A stretch of 64,000 nucleotides of DNA from Bordetella flabilis (GTDB lineage: Bacteria; Pseudomonadota; Gammaproteobacteria; Burkholderiales; Burkholderiaceae_B), in contig NZ_CP016172.1 of NCBI RefSeq assembly GCF_001676725.1, positions 5,766,001 to 5,830,000 on the forward strand. The letters run 5' to 3'. The position numbers and the translations under genes are program-made. This document shows positions 5,817-41,444 of the stretch, piece after piece (position 1 is the first letter of the stretch; the number at the start of each line of letters is the position of its first letter). The notes under the pieces are model-generated. The model had not been told where the DNA came from. It saw nothing but the letters and a program-made list of their open reading frames with translations, and searched no databases.

Positions 5817-6713
5817 CTACGCGGATGCCCGCCCAGATTTTCCGCTGGCCAGCGTCGCCAGCCATTCCAGCCGCGCGGGAACGGTGTCCGGGAGGTCGAG
5901 CCGCGCGCCGGCTGCATGAGCGGCTTCGATGCCATGCGTCGTACGGGCGAACAGGCGTTCCACGCCGTCGAGGACCAGGGGCTGCAGGCCCGCGTCGATC
6001 AGTTGCTCGCGCGCCTCGCGCACCTCGGCCAGGCGGCGCGGCGCGTGCAGGACGTGCGAGCGCAGGAACGAGTCCATGAACGTCGTCAGGGGCGTGCGAT
6101 CGATATCGGCCAGCACCTCGTACAGCGCATCACGCAGGCCCATGCTTTCGGCGGCCACCAGGCATTCGACGGTCAGGCTTTCCATGCCCTTGGTCATGAT
6201 GCTGCGCAGCAGCTTCAGGCGCACCGCGTCGCCGGCCTGGCCGGCAATGGCACGCGCCGGGGCGCCGCTGTCGCGTGCGAAGGCGGCGGCGGCTTCGGCG
6301 CCCGTTCCCGCGCACAGCAGCGGTGTGCGATCGCCCAATAGCGCAATGGCGCCCATGATCGCCACGTCGGCGAAAGGTATGCCGTCGCCGGCCGCGACGG
6401 TCGCGGCCGCACGCATGTCGGCCGCGCCCGCGGTGGTGAAGTCCGCGTACAGCGCGTCCGCGCGCAGGTAAGGCAGCGCCTGTTCCGCCACCCCGCGTGC
6501 GGCATGGCCGTAGACAGCCGAGACGACGATATCGGCGTCGGCCAGCCAGGCGCCCGGCGCCGCATGCAAGGCGGCGCCAAAGCCGCGGGCGAGGGCCTGC
6601 ATGTCAGGGTCCTGGCGGATTTCACAGATGGCGTAGATCGCATGCCCCGCCTTGCGCCAGGCCGCCGCGTAGCACTGGCCTACCTCTCCACATCCAATGA
6701 GGGCGATTTTCAT
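5817..6713 (-). CDS. NAD(P)-dependent oxidoreductase, 6-phosphogluconate/3-hydroxyacid dehydrogenase-like with DUF1932
   Basis: A 298-residue protein. Residues 1-130 form a Rossmann fold beginning MKIALIGCGEVGQCYAAAW with the GxGxxG-type dinucleotide loop at residues 7-12. Residues about 185-255 match the helical DUF1932 domain (KLLRSIMTKGMESLTVECLV). Proteins with this layout oxidise or reduce small hydroxy acids. The gene precedes the Bug receptor on the same strand, and the pair is flanked by a GntR/FCD regulator. I infer that all three act on one imported carboxylate. Start ATG 6713 is the only good choice, 15 bases downstream of the palindrome at 6729-6747. Confidence 0.82.
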   Translation of the reverse strand: MKIALIGCGEVGQCYAAAWRKAGHAIYAICEIRQDPDMQALARGFGAALHAAPGAWLADADIVVSAVYGHAARGVAEQALPYLRADALYADFTTAGAADMRAAATVAAGDGIPFADVAIMGAIALLGDRTPLLCAGTGAEAAAAFARDSGAPARAIAGQAGDAVRLKLLRSIMTKGMESLTVECLVAAESMGLRDALYEVLADIDRTPLTTFMDSFLRSHVLHAPRRLAEVREAREQLIDAGLQPLVLDGVERLFARTTHGIEAAHAAGARLDLPDTVPARLEWLATLASGKSGRASA

Positions 6714-32981: not shown

Positions 32982-33656
32982 CTACGCGCCGGCGCGGCGC
33001 ATCCAGACGAGGCATCGCTGCGCGTCCAGCTCGGGCACGTCTATGGGGTCTATCCGGGCGACTTGCCACCGGCCCGCGGCATGCAGCTGGGCGATCTCGT
33101 CGTCCGGAACCTTGCCCTTCAGGGCGACGAGGGTACCATCTGGCGCCACGTGCTGTCCTGCCAGGCGGGCGAAGTCGTCCAGCGCGGCGAATGCGCGCGA
33201 GGTGACGACATTGCAGCCCCCTGGCGGCAATTGTTCCACCCGTGCGTGTTCGGCCGTGAGATTGCGCAACTTGAGGGTCGCGGCAGCCTGCCGTATGAAG
33301 GCGGTTTTCTTGTCCACGGCGTCGATGCAGGTCACCTCCCACTCGGGCCGCATGATCGCCAGGATCACACCGGGCAGCCCGGCGCCCGCCCCGATATCGT
33401 AGAGCCGGCCCTGGGCCGGCATGGCGGCATCCAGCGGGTTCACCACGGCCAGGCTGTCGAAGACATGTTGCACCAGCATCTGGCCGGCGTCGCGTATGGC
33501 GGTGAGGTTGTACGTGCGGTTCCAGCGCTGCAACAGCGCAAGGTAGGCCAACAGCTTGTCGGCCTGATCGTTCGTGACGGCGAGCGACAGCGCCGCGCAC
33601 GCACGCCGAAGCCGCGCGTCCTCGGGGCCGTGGGGCGGGGCCTGCTGCGGCTTCAT
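32982..33656 (-). CDS. rsmG: 16S rRNA (guanine-527-N7) methyltransferase RsmG
   Basis: 224 residues. Class I methyltransferase with the SAM loop [20 protein letters not shown] near 72, preceded by the RsmG N-terminal helices ([20 protein letters not shown]). It makes m7G527 in 16S rRNA; loss gives low-level streptomycin resistance in other bacteria. Its ATG overlaps the mnmG stop (ATGA, 4 bases), the classic gidA-gidB coupling. Confidence 0.98.
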
Positions 33657-35569
33657 GCCGCGCGTTTGCGCGAGCCGTAGTGCAGGCGCTTGAGATGTAT
33701 GAGGAGCAAGGAAATCGCTGCAGGCGTGATGCCCGATATCCGCGCCGCCTGCCCTATGGTTCCGGGCCGATGGGTCTTGAGCTTCTGCCGCACTTCGAAA
33801 GACAGGCTCAGGACCGTGTCGTAGTCCAGGTCGTCGGGAATGGCCTGGCTTTCGTGTGCCATGTGCTTCTGCACTTCGTCCTGCTGGCGGGCGATGTAGC
33901 CGGCGTATTTCACCTGGATTTCGACCTGCTGAGCCGCCTCGGGGTCGTCCAGGCCCGGACCGGCGACGGGTGTGCCATCCGGCAGCGCGGCGTCCATCAG
34001 GGAACGATAACTCACGTTGGGACGCTTCAACAGGTCCGCTAGTGAGTACTCACGCTCTATCTGCTGGCCCAGTAGCGGCTCCGCAACTTCCGGAGGTAGA
34101 ACGCGTGGCGTGACCCACGTCGCGCGCAAGCGCTGGATTTCGTTTTCAACGATATCGCGCTTGCGTTCGAAAGCTTCCCAACGCCTATCATCGACCAAGC
34201 CTAATTTGCGGCCGATTTCAGTCAAACGCATATCTGCATTGTCTTCGCGCAGACTCAACCGATACTCCGCACGCGAGGTGAACATGCGATACGGCTCCGT
34301 CACACCCCGCGTGATCAAGTCATCGACCAATACGCCCAGGTATGCCTCATCGCGCCGCGGTGTCCAGCCTTCGCGGTCCAGGGCGGCAAGTCCGGCATTC
34401 AGCCCTGCCAAGAGGCCCTGGGCGGCGGCTTCCTCGTAACCGGTAGTTCCGTTGATCTGTCCAGCGAAGTAAAGACCGGAAATCGCGCGCGTTTCGAGCG
34501 ACGTACGTAATCCACGTGGATCGAAGTAGTCATATTCGATGGCATAGCCGGGACGCAGAATATGTGCGTGCTCCAGGCCGGGCAAGGAATGGATGAGATC
34601 GAGCTGTACGTCGAACGGCAGGCTGGTGGAAACGCCGTTGGGATAGACCTCGTGGGTATCCAGCCCTTCCGGTTCGAGGAAAACCTGGTGTGACGCCTTA
34701 TCCGCGAATCGATGAATCTTGTCCTCGATCGACGGACAATAGCGCGGACCGACACCCTCGATAACGCCGCTATACATCGGCGAACGGTCCAGGCCGCCGA
34801 GAATGATCTCGTGGGTGCGGGCATTGGTATGGGTGATCCAGCAAGGCAGTTGCCGAGGATGCAGTGCCGCGCTACCCATGAACGAAAATACCGGAACCGG
34901 ATCGAGGTCGCCAGGCTGCTCCTCCAATACGCTGTAGTCGATGGTTCGGCCATCGATACGGGGCGGGGTGCCCGTCTTCAGGCGACCCTGCGGCAGCTTC
35001 AGCTCTTTGAGTCTTTGTCCCAGCGAGGTGGCGGGAGGATCTCCGGCACGGCCAGCCGAGTAGTTTTGCAGGCCCACATGGATCAACCCGTTCAGGAAAG
35101 TTCCGGCCGTGAGCACGACCTTGCGTGCGCGGAATCGGAGACCGATCTGGGTGACCGCACCGACCACGCGGTCTCCTTCCACCATCAGGTCATCCACGGC
35201 TTGTTGGAATATCCACAGGTTCGGTTGATTTTCGAGCCTGGAACGTATGGCCTTCCGGTATAGAACACGGTCGGCCTGCGCACGCGTCGCCCGTACCGCT
35301 GGACCCTTGGAGGCATTCAATATGCGGAACTGGATTCCCGCCTCATCCGTGGCCAGCGCCATCGCGCCACCCAGGGCATCTATTTCCTTGACCAGATGTC
35401 CCTTGCCAATACCCCCGATGGAGGGATTGCAGGACATCTGTCCCAGGGTCTCGATGTTGTGGGTAAGCAAGAGAGTGCGGGCGCCGATGCGCGCGGACGC
35501 CAGGGCTGCCTCGGTGCCGGCGTGGCCACCGCCCACCACAATGACGTCGAACTCGCGGGGATAATCCAT
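33653..35569 (-). CDS. mnmG: tRNA uridine-5-carboxymethylaminomethyl modification enzyme MnmG
   Basis: 638 residues. FAD-binding N-terminus [20 protein letters not shown], the GidA signatures [20 protein letters not shown] and [20 protein letters not shown], and the C-terminal MnmE/tRNA-binding helical domain. With MnmE (47553-48914) it forms cmnm5U34 in tRNA. ATG 35569 starts [15 protein letters not shown], which is the family start; frames back to 35623 are not coding. First gene of the mnmG-rsmG-parA-GNAT-parB-asparaginase series. A TATAAT box lies at 35601-35606 and a parS site overlaps its upstream promoter region. Confidence 0.98.
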
Positions 35570-35600
35570 GGGATATGCAGGAAAAAGAGCTTGAGTCGGG

Positions 35601-35606
35601 ATTATA
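35601..35606 (-). promoter_or_regulatory. -10 box of the mnmG-parAB operon promoter
   Basis: A perfect TATAAT on the minus strand, with the expected transcription start about 25 bases before the mnmG ATG. No good TTGACA is found 17 bases upstream. The upstream element would fall just before parS1 (35627-35642), which covers roughly -33 to -48, suggesting that ParB binding could affect this promoter. Confidence 0.6.
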
Positions 35607-35626
35607 AAGGTTGGCCGGCACACGGG

Positions 35627-35642
35627 TGTTTCACGTGAAACA
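35627..35642. other. parS site 1 (perfect consensus)
   Basis: TGTTTCACGTGAAACA, a 16-base perfect palindrome identical to the chromosomal parS consensus bound by ParB. It lies 58 bases upstream of the mnmG start codon, within the operon promoter. Confidence 0.93.
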
Positions 35643-35691
35643 GCGAGGGGTCGGATGTTGGTAATTCAGCAATAGCTTGAACCGAGCACGA

Positions 35692-35707
35692 TGTTCCACG
35701 TGAAACA
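35692..35707. other. parS site 2
   Basis: TGTTCCACGTGAAACA, one change from the parS consensus, 50 bases from the end of site 1. Confidence 0.9.
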
Positions 35708-36213
35708 TCGCCCTTGAGCATTGCCGAGCCCAGTGCGCCGCCGGCTGCCAAACGCGCGCCCTCACAGCGAGCGGCAAAGGCATGAAACCTGGCCGGAGTG
35801 ACGCCGGCGGAAAGCGCTAAGCAGTGTATGGCCATTGGGGGCCTTACCCCACCATATCATCGCATCGCATATGGAGACTACGTATCCAGAGACAAGACGT
35901 ACGTTGCTTCGGATTGCCGTCCCAAGGTCACCTCGGGCGTTCGGTCAGCACTTCCGTACGACGACTGCATGTACCTGGTCAAAGAATGGAGGCGGGCGCT
36001 CCATCCCGTCTCCGTGAAGACTCTCCCTCCGAAATCACCAGAGGCGTACGAGCCTGAGCACGCCATGGTGGTAGCCGTGGCTCCTTAAGGCACTGCTCGG
36101 TGTCGGCTAACGGCGGTGCAACGGGAAATGTTCTCTCAGTCAGGCTGCGATTGCCGCCATTGCTCAGCGCCACGGTGGGCCGACTGCGAGACAGCTTCTG
36201 CCACTGGGCTTGA

Positions 36214-36229
36214 TGTTCCACGTGGAACA
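36214..36229. other. parS site 3
   Basis: TGTTCCACGTGGAACA, a perfect palindrome with two symmetric changes from TGTTTCACGTGAAACA. Confidence 0.8.
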
Positions 36230-36298
36230 GGCCGGCCACCTGTAGACAAAGGCTCTGCAAGAACGATGCTCTGACGCCACATTCAATAACAGTGGCAT

Positions 36299-36314
36299 TG
36301 TTTCACGTGGAACG
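36299..36314. other. parS site 4
   Basis: TGTTTCACGTGGAACG, two changes from consensus, 70 bases after site 3. Confidence 0.72.
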
Positions 36315-37358: not shown

Positions 37359-37374
37359 CGTTCCACGTGAAACC
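37359..37374. other. parS site 5
   Basis: CGTTCCACGTGAAACC: the core TTCCACGTGAAAC is kept but both outer bases differ. Weakest of the five. Confidence 0.6.
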
Positions 37375-37515: not shown

Positions 37516-37888
37516 ATATCCACAGGCACGCCGCTTCTCTCATATGAGAATCGCAGGACGCCAGAAACTGGGGATAGAGTTGTGAACAACATTCGCCCAG
37601 CCGCTCGCTACGCAGCGAGCATCCCGTGTGGAGCAGCCTGTAAGGGCATGCCAAAACTACAATAAAACGCCCGTTCACCGCGGCAGTTTTACAAGGGAGA
37701 TATAAGAACTACGCGTCCACGAGCGGGCGGGTCATCACCGGTGCAAACGCGATGCTAAGTAATGTCAAGCGGTGCTGTGTATAACCTTCGGGGGGCGAGG
37801 CCGACATCAAGGGCGTCGCCCTGATCTGGCCATCCCAGACGCACGGTTTTCCCATACTGTCCAGTGATTATCCACAGAATTATCCAAG
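37516..37888. other. DnaA-box cluster A (candidate origin element)
   Basis: Within 370 gene-free bases: ATATCCACA (37516-37524, plus), TTGTTCACA (37581-37589, minus), TTATACACA (37776-37784, minus), a perfect TTATCCACA (37868-37876, plus) and a weaker TTATCCAAG (37880-37888). It sits between the parS group and the cold-shock gene. No strong AT-rich unwinding tract is adjacent, so this is more likely an accessory DnaA-binding cluster than the unwinding site. Confidence 0.5.
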
Positions 37889-38538: not shown

Positions 38539-39705
38539 ATGATCCGCTCCAAGCTGCCTGACGTCGGTACCACTATCTTCACCGTCATGAGCCGCCTCGC
38601 GCTCGAACACAAGGCCATCAATCTGGGGCAGGGTTTTCCGGACTTCGACCCCGCTCCCGCGCTGCTTGATCTCGTTTCCAAGGCCATGGCTCAGGGGCAC
38701 AACCAATACCCCTATATGCCTGGCGTGGCGCCATTGAGGCAAGCCATTGCCGCCAAGACGCGCGAACTATACGGCCACGCATACGACCCCGAAACGGAGA
38801 TCACGGTCACCAGCGGCGCGACCGAAGCGCTGATGGCCACCATACTTGCCGCCGTCGACAGCGGCGACGAAGTCGTCGTCATCGAACCCTGCTACGACTC
38901 CTATTTACCGGCCATCCGTCTCGCCGGAGGCACTGCTGTGCCGGTACCGCTGCGCGCGCCCACGGCAGAGGATCCTTACTACCGTATCGATTGGCAGCGC
39001 GTGCGCGACGCCATCACGCCGAAGACGCGCCTGCTGATGCTGAATTTCCCGCATAACCCCACTGGCGTGATCCTGGGCGAAAAGGATCTGGATGCGCTGG
39101 AGAAAATCGTACGCGATACGGGAATATTGCTGGTGTCGGACGAGGTGTACGAACACATCGTGTTCGACGGCCAACCGCACGCCAGCCTGGCCCGCAGACC
39201 GTTGCTCGCCGAACACGCCTTCGTCATTTCGTCCTTTGGCAAGACTTACCACACCACCGGATGGAAGATCGGCTATTGCTGCGCGCCACGTCACTTGACG
39301 GCGGAACTGCGCAAGGTGCACCAGTTCATGGTGTTCACCGTGTCTTCCCCCATGCAGTTCGCATTCGCCGAATATATGCAAGACCCGCGACCGTACCTGG
39401 AGCTACCGGCTTTTTACCAAGCGAAGCGGGACCGGCTGCGCGATGGCCTCGCGTCGACGCGCTTCCGCGCGCTGCCCAGCCCCGGTACGTTCTTCATGAT
39501 GGCCGACTACAGCGCGATCTCCGACCGGCCAGAGGCAGAGTTCGCGAGGTGGCTGACGACCACACACGGCGTCACGGTAATTCCCATATCGGCTTTCTAT
39601 GGCGCACCCGACGCACCTGACTCCAACCACAAGCTCATCCGCTTCTGCTTTGCAAAGCGCGACGAGACATTGGACCAGGCGCTTGAACGATTGCGCAGCG
39701 TATAG
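38539..39705 (+). CDS. PLP-dependent aminotransferase, class I/II (methionine aminotransferase type)
   Basis: 388 residues of fold type I. Visible: INLGQGFPDFDPAPALLD near residue 28, the NxPxNPTG motif as LNFPHNPTGVILGEKD near 170, and the PLP lysine in SSFGKTYHTTGWKIGYCCAP near 236, ending HKLIRFCFAKRDETLDQALE. The GQGFPDF and TGWKIGY motifs are those of the MtnE/YbdL and kynurenine aminotransferase group, which transaminates methionine or aromatic amino acids with 2-oxo acids. Monocistronic: a clean stem-loop terminator follows. First rightward gene right of the parS region. Confidence 0.92.
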   Translation: MIRSKLPDVGTTIFTVMSRLALEHKAINLGQGFPDFDPAPALLDLVSKAMAQGHNQYPYMPGVAPLRQAIAAKTRELYGHAYDPETEITVTSGATEALMATILAAVDSGDEVVVIEPCYDSYLPAIRLAGGTAVPVPLRAPTAEDPYYRIDWQRVRDAITPKTRLLMLNFPHNPTGVILGEKDLDALEKIVRDTGILLVSDEVYEHIVFDGQPHASLARRPLLAEHAFVISSFGKTYHTTGWKIGYCCAPRHLTAELRKVHQFMVFTVSSPMQFAFAEYMQDPRPYLELPAFYQAKRDRLRDGLASTRFRALPSPGTFFMMADYSAISDRPEAEFARWLTTTHGVTVIPISAFYGAPDAPDSNHKLIRFCFAKRDETLDQALERLRSV

Positions 39706-39736
39706 CCCGCTGTATACCCGCATCCTGAGCGGCCTC

Positions 39737-39767
39737 AAAGGGACAGCATATAGCTGTCCCTTTTTAT
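39737..39767 (+). terminator. Rho-independent terminator after the aminotransferase gene
   Basis: AAAGGGACAGC (39737-39747) and GCTGTCCCTTT (39753-39763) form a perfect 11-bp stem with a 5-base loop followed by TTTATTT. The A-rich left arm makes it workable in both directions. Confidence 0.88.
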
Positions 39768-40004
39768 TTCAGGTTGGAATGGCAAGCTCGATACGGGGCT
39801 CGGACGCGGCGGACCATGGCACTGGCCCCTGTGCATAAGCGCTGGGCAGCCGGTTGTGCATAGTGTGTGGATGCGTCCGGAACAAGAGCCCGAAAACGCC
39901 GGCGCGGAGAACTTGTCCAGTTTGGTGTATCCACGAGAACAGACTTAATGCACAAGCCGTATCGAGCCTAAGCCCAAGGCCGGCCTCGCAATTTTGACGT
40001 TGTG

Positions 40005-40065
40005 CAGTTATCCACAGTCCTAATCATTACCACTCTTTTTATATAGAAAAGAAGAAGTGAAAAAC
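40005..40065 (+). repeat. Left arm of a 61-bp inverted repeat (DnaA box plus AT tract)
   Basis: It begins CAGTTATCCACAGTCC, continues through TCATTACCACTC into TTTTTATATAGAAAAGAAGA and ends GTGAAAAAC. Compared with the right arm it has only about six substitutions and two single-base gaps, and the central 22 bases are identical. Confidence 0.9.
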
Positions 40066-40618
40066 AAGCTGGCGCGCCATCTGCCGGTTTCCCAATCACC
40101 GCAGAACGCCAATGGAGACAGGCTCCTCCTCCGAAGCAGCATCCCGACATCGCTGGACTGCCACGGTCCATCAAACAGCGCGGACAGCTCCTGGGCGCTT
40201 TTCTGGCGCCTACTCGACCCGGGACCATACAGTCCATCGGACTTCGCTGACGACGTGTCAAAGGGACGGAGAGCGCAGCGAATGGCAACGGGGACCGTGA
40301 GGCGAGCCGGAGTATTCCTGCATGACGTACCCCAAGCGATGTGCAGGAACTCCGAAGTCCGTGGCAACGACGCGCCGCTCCGAAGAACCGACCGCGCCAG
40401 CACAACACGCGTCGTCTGTCGCTCAACAGCCTCTGAGCCTCCTGGGCGGCTCCGGACGACCATCGCCTATCCGCACCCCTGTTCGGGGCTGTTCGGCCCT
40501 CCTGGGGCCGCAAAACGCTTCCTGGGGGCCGGCGTATCGGAATCTCCGCTCCCAAGAGGCGCCCGTGCGCGCCCGGGATTCGCCAATCCAAAGGCGCGCG
40601 CGCCGATGGCTTATTGAT
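40066..40618. other. 553-bp spacer between the inverted arms
   Basis: GC-rich sequence unlike the AT-rich arms. Open frames cross it on both strands, including one that starts with GTG inside the left arm and ends just before the right arm. The predicted peptides are rich in Arg, Pro, Ser and Thr, show no fold or family, and have no ribosome site. I treat it as non-coding. No transposase remnant is seen. Confidence 0.5.
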
Positions 40619-40679
40619 GTTTTCACGTCTTCTTTTCTATATAAAAAGACTGGTAATGGATAAGGACTGTGGACAAGTG
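40619..40679 (-). repeat. Right arm of the 61-bp inverted repeat
   Basis: On the minus strand it begins CACTTGTCCACAGTCC, then TCCATTACCAGTC, the shared core TTTTTATATAGAAAAGAAGA and CGTGAAAAC. The DnaA box is the TTGTCCACA variant where the left arm has TTATCCACA. Confidence 0.9.
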
Positions 40680-40985
40680 GCATAACCCGGCAAAATCGCG
40701 CGTCATCAAGGCCTTGCGAGGTTTTTCGCATGTGTACCAACTCTGTTTGGGGGTACGCGCCACCATGAGCAACTTTCGCGCGAGGCTGCCGGGGCCGGTC
40801 TTATACCCATTGGGTCCACAGGGTGTGCACAATCCCACGTCATAGAGGCTGTCCACAGGAGGATCGCAGCGGCCGGATATGGATGGCATACCGGTTCGGC
40901 ATGGATGCGCGCCGCCGCAAGCCGTGCCGAGGCCTCGTCCCGGTATACCGCGGGAACGACAACCGCCATCGAGGCTGAGGCGGAA

Positions 40986-41444
40986 TCAGCCCTGGTTGAA
41001 TACTTCGGCGAACTCGTCGGAAAAAATATCGGCCAGCGCGACCCGCAGGGCCGCGGCACGCTCGACGCCATACGCGGCTTCGAAGCGGTCCTGTGCCAGG
41101 CGCCAGAGCCGAGTCGCTTCGGCCAGCTTGCTGCGCCCTTTGGCGGTCAACTGTACGCGCCGGCTGCGCCCGTCATGTTCGTCGCGGATTTGCACCACAT
41201 AGCCGTCGCGTTCCAGTGGCTTGAGGTTATGCGCGAGCGCCGACCGGTCCAGTACCATGGCATGCGCCAGTTCCGTCATAGTCGGCATGCCGGCACGTTC
41301 TATGTGCAGCAGGATGGAACGCTGCGAGACGCGCAGGCCGGAGGGCGCCAGCACGTTGTCATAGAGCTGCGTGACCCGCCGCGTTGCCTTGCGCAGCGCG
41401 GCGCCATTGCAAACCCCGGGATCTTTGGAATCGGATTTTGGCAT
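40986..41444 (-). CDS. MarR family transcriptional regulator
   Basis: 152 residues with the MarR winged helix: LRVSQRSILLHIERAGMPTM, then MTELAHAMVLDRSALAHNLK (recognition helix) and the wing RDEHDGRSRRVQLTAKGRSK. MarR dimers usually repress a divergent transporter and respond to small aromatics. It is divergent from a MATE exporter gene, with palindromes between the two, so control of that exporter (and perhaps the nitroreductase) is likely. Confidence 0.92.
   Translation of the reverse strand: MPKSDSKDPGVCNGAALRKATRRVTQLYDNVLAPSGLRVSQRSILLHIERAGMPTMTELAHAMVLDRSALAHNLKPLERDGYVVQIRDEHDGRSRRVQLTAKGRSKLAEATRLWRLAQDRFEAAYGVERAAALRVALADIFSDEFAEVFNQG

Follow-up and report, generated by a model that had tools for sequence, protein, structure and literature searches.

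The analysed window, a stretch of bacterial DNA 64,000 nucleotides long, very probably contains the chromosome replication origin of a Bordetella/Achromobacter-like bacterium. This origin is likely to be duplicated, with two paralogous and complete E. coli-type oriC units lying about 0.55 kb apart, and there is an even chance that either unit would be able to fire. The first-pass annotation had proposed a candidate oriC made of two head-to-head units, each with a DnaA box and an AT tract, and this proposal gained support from the presence of the unit in 79 of 80 related loci and from a switch of strand composition in two relatives.

The two units lie in a gap of 1,282 bp (39705–40986) between a class I/II aminotransferase gene (38539–39705, plus strand; ORF list, Pfam and protein search) and a gene for a MarR-type regulator (40986–41444, minus strand; ORF list, Pfam and an 86.8% identical neighbour in genome G008). 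The gene order on either side agrees with that of G008 and, as had been stated, no gene is recognised between the aminotransferase end at 39705 and the MarR end at 40986. The left unit, hereafter copy A, being proximal to the aminotransferase gene, occupies 39828–40066 on the minus strand (nhmmer profile hit 40054–39828, E 5.9e-37), and the right unit, the distal copy B, occupies 40618–40860 on the plus strand (profile hit 40629–40859, E 1.2e-44). Each comprises about 235 bp and consists, in order, of an AT-rich DUE, an R1-like DnaA box, a box array and an R4-like box. The putative DUEs, delimited by sequence, GC content and AT-rich columns in an alignment of 70 units, are located at 40019–40066 on the left (minus strand, 27% GC) and at 40618–40658 on the right (plus strand, 29% GC). 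Box matching placed a perfect R1-like box, TTATCCACA, at 40008–40016 (plus strand) in the left unit and one with a single mismatch, TTGTCCACA, at 40668–40676 (minus strand) in the right unit, so that both nonamers claimed for the arms of an inverted repeat were found. The R4-like boxes are TTATGCACA on the left (39830–39838, minus strand, one mismatch) and CTGTCCACA on the right (40849–40857, plus strand, two mismatches). The DUEs are separated by a spacer of 551 bp (40067–40617) in which an ORF/Pfam test recognised no gene.

The inverted repeat of about 61 bp with some six differences, from which the earlier proposal started, was recovered as two arm pairs offset by one base: 40025–40063 with 40620–40658 (39 nt, 95% identity) and 40005–40025 with 40659–40679 (21 nt, 86% identity). 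The best 39-nt inverted match in the gap has 37 of 39 positions identical, while the maximum over 200 dinucleotide shuffles was 31. The arms are real but constitute only the inner ends of the 235-bp units, so the extent of the homology had been underestimated. Three boxes with at most one mismatch from TTATCCACA are present in the 1,282-bp gap (39830, 40008, and 40668), whereas 200 shuffles gave 0.135 on average; such clustering of DnaA boxes beyond chance is expected of an oriC. Among the further box-like nonamers said to flank the repeat, the one at 39830 stands with one mismatch, and the remaining ones are two-mismatch matches. The AT tracts of both arms fall to 25% GC over 40 bp, and the only lower 40-bp site in the 64-kb window, among the sites listed, is near 6706; an AT-rich DUE adjoining a DnaA box, another property of an oriC, is thus present twice. 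The spacer, described as GC-rich, is not unusually so, its GC content being 65.2% compared with a window mean of 64.5%.

Other identities of the region were considered as well. A coding spacer was rejected, since Pfam found no match in three ORFs tested in or across it. A plasmid or phage origin was rejected on the basis of a blastn search with 39700–40990, which gave no match at E 1e-5 in collections of 72,556 plasmid and 50,697 phage records. An RNA element was likewise rejected, no Rfam family reaching its gathering score in a scan of 30–46 kb.

To describe the unit in related bacteria, both window units (260 bp each) served as the seed of a profile, which was iterated on 80 loci retrieved with the aminotransferase protein as query. 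In 79 of these loci the unit of about 235 bp was present and lay, as in the window, downstream of the aminotransferase gene, in agreement with the expectation that the repeat should recur in relatives; the sole exception, L009, stops after 15,935 bases, short of the position, about 16,700, where its kin carry the unit. With a score above 70, 91 units were counted, 67 loci having one and 12 having two; weak opposite-strand hits overlapping found units (E 0.0085 to 1.3e-10) and one weak partial plus-strand hit in L037 (E 0.0007) were left out of this count. All 91 units are on the plus strand relative to the aminotransferase gene and start at most 8.4 kb downstream, the distance being about 5.5 kb in most Achromobacter and Bordetella. 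The right unit of the window therefore has the usual orientation, and the left one is reversed with respect to the units of the 79 loci; compared with the 80 loci, an opposed pair downstream of the aminotransferase gene is found only in the window. The record titles of the 12 two-unit loci all name Alcaligenaceae genera or "Alcaligenaceae". As a side observation, the titles of three MAG-derived loci, L069, L071, and L072 (Methylopumilus, Bordetella parapertussis, and Lautropia mirabilis), do not fit their aminotransferase identity of 66–67% and gene order, and these labels may be wrong.

Of the 93 units, 70, including the two of the window, were aligned. The order along this alignment is the DUE, the box TGTGGATAA, weaker boxes and a terminal TTATCCACA; among the 68 non-window units the first box is perfect in 65 and the last in 58. 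None of the six units of the window, G008, and G009 has a perfect R4-like box, while 58 of the 68 non-window units do; we do not claim that its loss was caused by duplication, as the pattern comes from one set of three genomes. Trio-like triplets were counted on one strand, in a count of our own following the criterion of PMC8287927, which asks for three or more DnaA-trio motifs no farther than 16 bp from a box. The left window unit has four and the right three, and at least three were found in 57 of the 68 non-window units versus 35% of shuffles. Since 35% of shuffled upstream sequences pass and both units of G009, with one and two triplets, fall short, the trios of the window units provide weak evidence.

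The nearest genomes compared with the window are G008 and G009, with identities of 88.7% and 88.9% for the aminotransferase and 91.8% and 92.1% for MnmG. In the genus nearest to the window, that of G002, all six genomes examined contain two units, always in tandem. Among relatives of G001, 191 of 299 had a unit match at E ≤ 0.001. Arrangement was tallied from 150 listed matches in 112 genomes, reaching to about E 1e-22; two units were present in at least 38 of the 112 among the matches listed, and such counts are lower bounds because matches were listed only to about that E-value. In 34 of the 38 two-unit genomes among the matches listed, both units are on the same strand of one contig and start no more than 4.3 kb apart. 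As these genomes are related to each other, their pairs do not count as independent events. A second opposed case was found in G038 (L140, 7999–9774), where head-to-head units 1.3 kb apart flank the aminotransferase gene, and in G165 the two units are on two different contigs. In the profile searches that include the six genomes of the genus, only the units themselves were found, apart from one weak extra hit each in G004 and G005. Judging from these matches, two copies are usual in the window's nearest genus, and the orientation of the left unit is what is special about the window. In G166 (C23, 165239 and 238451) and G047 (C4, 90105 and 178605), the two units are opposed and enclose dnaA, at distances from each other of 73 and 88 kb; an inversion may possibly have given each of these chromosomes two origins at separate places.

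Comparison of species pairs indicates, at the sequence level, that both copies have been kept and are more conserved than the DNA between them. For G001/G002, G008/G009, and G006/G007, identity was 90, 66, and 80% in copy A and 79, 68, and 77% in copy B, while the spacer from A to B had 54, 43, and 44%, two shuffled controls giving 43 and 41%. In the closest pair, G001/G002, the flanks are conserved too (74% before A and 83% after B), and therefore this pair alone is no proof of constraint; the flanks of G008/G009 have 49% identity before A and 47% after B. The units thus appear as conserved islands of their gap in comparison with relatives.

The history of the pair was addressed with a tree of 31 units and 200 bootstrap trees. 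The left window unit groups with copy A of G008 and G009 with support of 89/85, which is moderate and under the starred level of the tool, and the seven A and seven B copies, 14 units in all, form one common group (95/87). For G001, G002, G006, and G007, copies A (99/99) and copies B (95/93) form separate groups, copy B of G009 is placed beside the A copies of the window, G008, and G009 (81/61), and the right window unit has no settled place. A recent duplication or an assembly copy was rejected, since the two window units share only 57% identity, and the nearest match of the left one is a copy A from another species (that of G009, 64%). Given that the left unit is placed with the copies A of G008 and G009, and that it, unlike the right unit, departs from the usual orientation, the simplest history would be a tandem pair in which copy A was inverted in place, and the mirror form is probably such an in-place flip. 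Position, with two units in six of six genomes, suggests one old duplication for the whole genus; a single ancestral duplication could not be established, however, as neither the seven A copies nor the seven B copies ever formed one group in the 200 bootstrap trees.

Independent information on the location of the origin came from the strand composition of two relatives, G007 and G008, whose chromosomes were scanned in twenty evenly spaced 20-kb samples each. The sign of the GC skew changes across the units in both. Forward and reverse KOPS motifs numbered 3:35 to the left of the units and 38:9 to their right in G007; in G008 the corresponding counts were 1:25 and 30:2. A switch point was then fitted to GC and AT skews at third codon positions, with 521 and 471 ORFs for the two relatives. 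For G008, the best fit was at 5,506,000, with the units at 5,504,700–5,505,582 and a loss of only 0.2 lnL at 5,505,000. For G007, it was at 5,234,000, about 22 kb from the units (5,255,515–5,256,519); points within 2 lnL extended over 5,232,000–5,264,000, and the units at 5,256,000 had −2.2 lnL. The dnaA gene, whose distance from the units is about 27 kb in G008, 67 kb in G007, and about 27–71 kb across six genomes of the genus, was 8.2 lnL worse than the optimum in G008 and 12.1 lnL worse in G007, so an origin at dnaA was rejected. The minimum of the cumulative GC skew was at 5,505,000 in G008 (187 kb examined) and at 5,166,000 in G007 (−846, versus −810 at 5,256,000; 320 kb examined). Close to the units the signal is less regular: the first 20-kb sample to their right has a left-type GC skew in both G007 (−0.012) and G008 (−0.032), and the 20-kb pieces adjoining them show mixed KOPS orientation. 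In the window itself KOPS are few and run in the opposite direction (5:0 left, 1:4 right), and the skew is weak within 64 kb. The switch is thus placed at the site in relatives G007 and G008 only, with a precision of about 22 kb or better. The annotation had made its proposal dependent on the skew minimum and on the distribution of the repeat; in both relatives the switch is at or near the units and not at dnaA, and the repeat is conserved rather than scattered.

The neighbourhood is also of the kind expected near an oriC. The origin-linked gene mnmG/gidA (33653–35623, minus strand; ORF list and Pfam) is 4.2 kb away, and an exact parS-like palindrome, TGTTTCACGTGAAACA, is located at 35627–35642, with near-matches at 35692, 36214, and 36299. 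These sites form a row upstream of mnmG (35627–36314), another being seen by eye at 37361, and several parS-like sites also occur in the corresponding stretches of G007, G008, and G009. A third group of DnaA boxes, found by box matching at 37516–37888, comprises ATATCCACA at 37516 (plus strand), TTATACACA at 37776 (minus), TTATCCACA at 37868 (plus), and TTATCCAAG at 37880 (plus). Its first three boxes have nearly equal spacing in G008 and G009 (260–262 and 92–93), and it is perhaps an accessory DnaA site.

The E. coli oriC consists of a DUE, the box R1, a box array and the box R4. Each unit resembles this compact type in that, within about 235 bp, an AT-rich DUE is followed by a box of the form TGTGGATAA, an array and, at the far end, a box of the TTATCCACA type, and differs in that two units share one intergenic region and, in the window, face each other and have imperfect R4-like boxes. 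The bipartite origins of B. subtilis, H. pylori, and other Epsilonproteobacteria, as treated in part of PMC5043019, have box clusters flanking dnaA, with unwinding in oriC2; they are similar in having two DnaA-box clusters per origin that DnaA could bridge, whereas the window units are paralogous, each with its own DUE-like tract, and have no dnaA between them, dnaA in the genus being tens of kilobases away. Putative double origins have been reported from DoriC (Gao 2015, PMC4403523), with four organisms in Table 1 and a large duplication in M. bovis BCG. They likewise involve two predicted oriCs per chromosome, but the cases in the part of that paper considered are two dnaA-linked regions or a distant second site, with no paralogous pair within 1 kb. 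The basal unwinding system, in the part of PMC8287927 considered, is comparable in the triplets near the box of both window units and of most others, and unlike the window arrangement, where it is present twice and in opposed orientation. Among the best-ranked titles, the literature on multiple, duplicated or head-to-head oriC and on Bordetella or Alcaligenaceae oriC contained no recognisable account of such pairs, two-site symmetric initiation on a bacterial chromosome was not announced in the titles or abstract starts of the best-ranked papers, and the parts considered of PMC12342881 and PMC10225481 have no bearing on duplicated oriC in Alcaligenaceae.

The most economical mechanism would be two self-contained unwinding sites, either of which could start a round of replication. 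Each unit would nucleate its own DnaA assembly, extending from the R1-like box into the adjoining DUE and opening it; in each round the chromosome would start at one unit or the other, and the pair would act as a redundant or higher-capacity origin. Since each unit would be self-contained, orientation should matter little and a flipped copy could persist. It is quite possible, although on balance improbable, that a single unit does the work of oriC and that the second is a decaying copy or, like datA/DARS, serves the control of initiation by binding DnaA, as a regulator or for titration. This alternative retains the origin and disputes only that either unit can fire. It is serious because, of the two window units, the left alone has a perfect first box and neither has a perfect last one; the copies also differ in that the right window unit has TTGTCCACA, copy B of G009 has TTTTCCACA, and copy B of G008 sits on a long branch, while R4-like boxes are imperfect throughout the window, G008, and G009. 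Yet both copies have kept an AT-rich DUE, for which a pure titration site would have no use, and their conservation between species is similar.

Joint action of the pair as a mirror-image origin, with both DUEs opening in one event and each loading one helicase for one fork, seems unlikely: the head-to-head geometry of the window and, around the aminotransferase gene, of G038 would suit it, but the DUEs are separated by DNA of ordinary GC content, and as most two-unit relatives are tandem, opposition or joint firing is not needed in general. Equally doubtful is the broader idea that Alcaligenaceae repeatedly keep two working units and that the flip in the window's lineage produced a mirror origin, in which each opposed DnaA assembly would set one fork. 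An origin elsewhere in the vicinity, at dnaA or at the 37.5–37.9 kb cluster by mnmG, with the units as accessory DnaA sites, is very improbable. The fit at dnaA is 8–12 lnL worse; the conserved box spacing of the cluster argues for the latter position, and skew is unable to separate points 2–4 kb apart, but the mnmG–csp stretch gives only short or weak blastn matches to three relatives and contributes none of the AT-richest 40-mers listed for the window, whereas conservation within the gap is concentrated in the units. That the repeat arose by chance or is mobile, and has no origin function, is hardly credible; transposition can produce inverted repeats, though no result of this analysis favours it, and such a reading is contradicted by the conserved place in the related loci, the inverted match never reached in shuffles, the lack of plasmid or phage blastn matches at E 1e-5, and the low copy number of the unit, no more than a few in any genome searched.

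The preferred reading, a duplicated origin with two units each potentially able to fire, bears on the expectation that a bacterial chromosome has one oriC, as the window holds what appear to be two complete start signals face to face. Predictions of a single oriC per chromosome, as the arrangement suggests, may merge or miss such pairs. A conserved pair, mostly tandem and mirrored here, would constitute a natural experiment on whether initiation is shared between unwinding sites less than 1 kb apart. It also bears on whether the orientation of oriC matters for the loading of bidirectional forks, and raises the question of how firing once per cycle is maintained with two DUEs.
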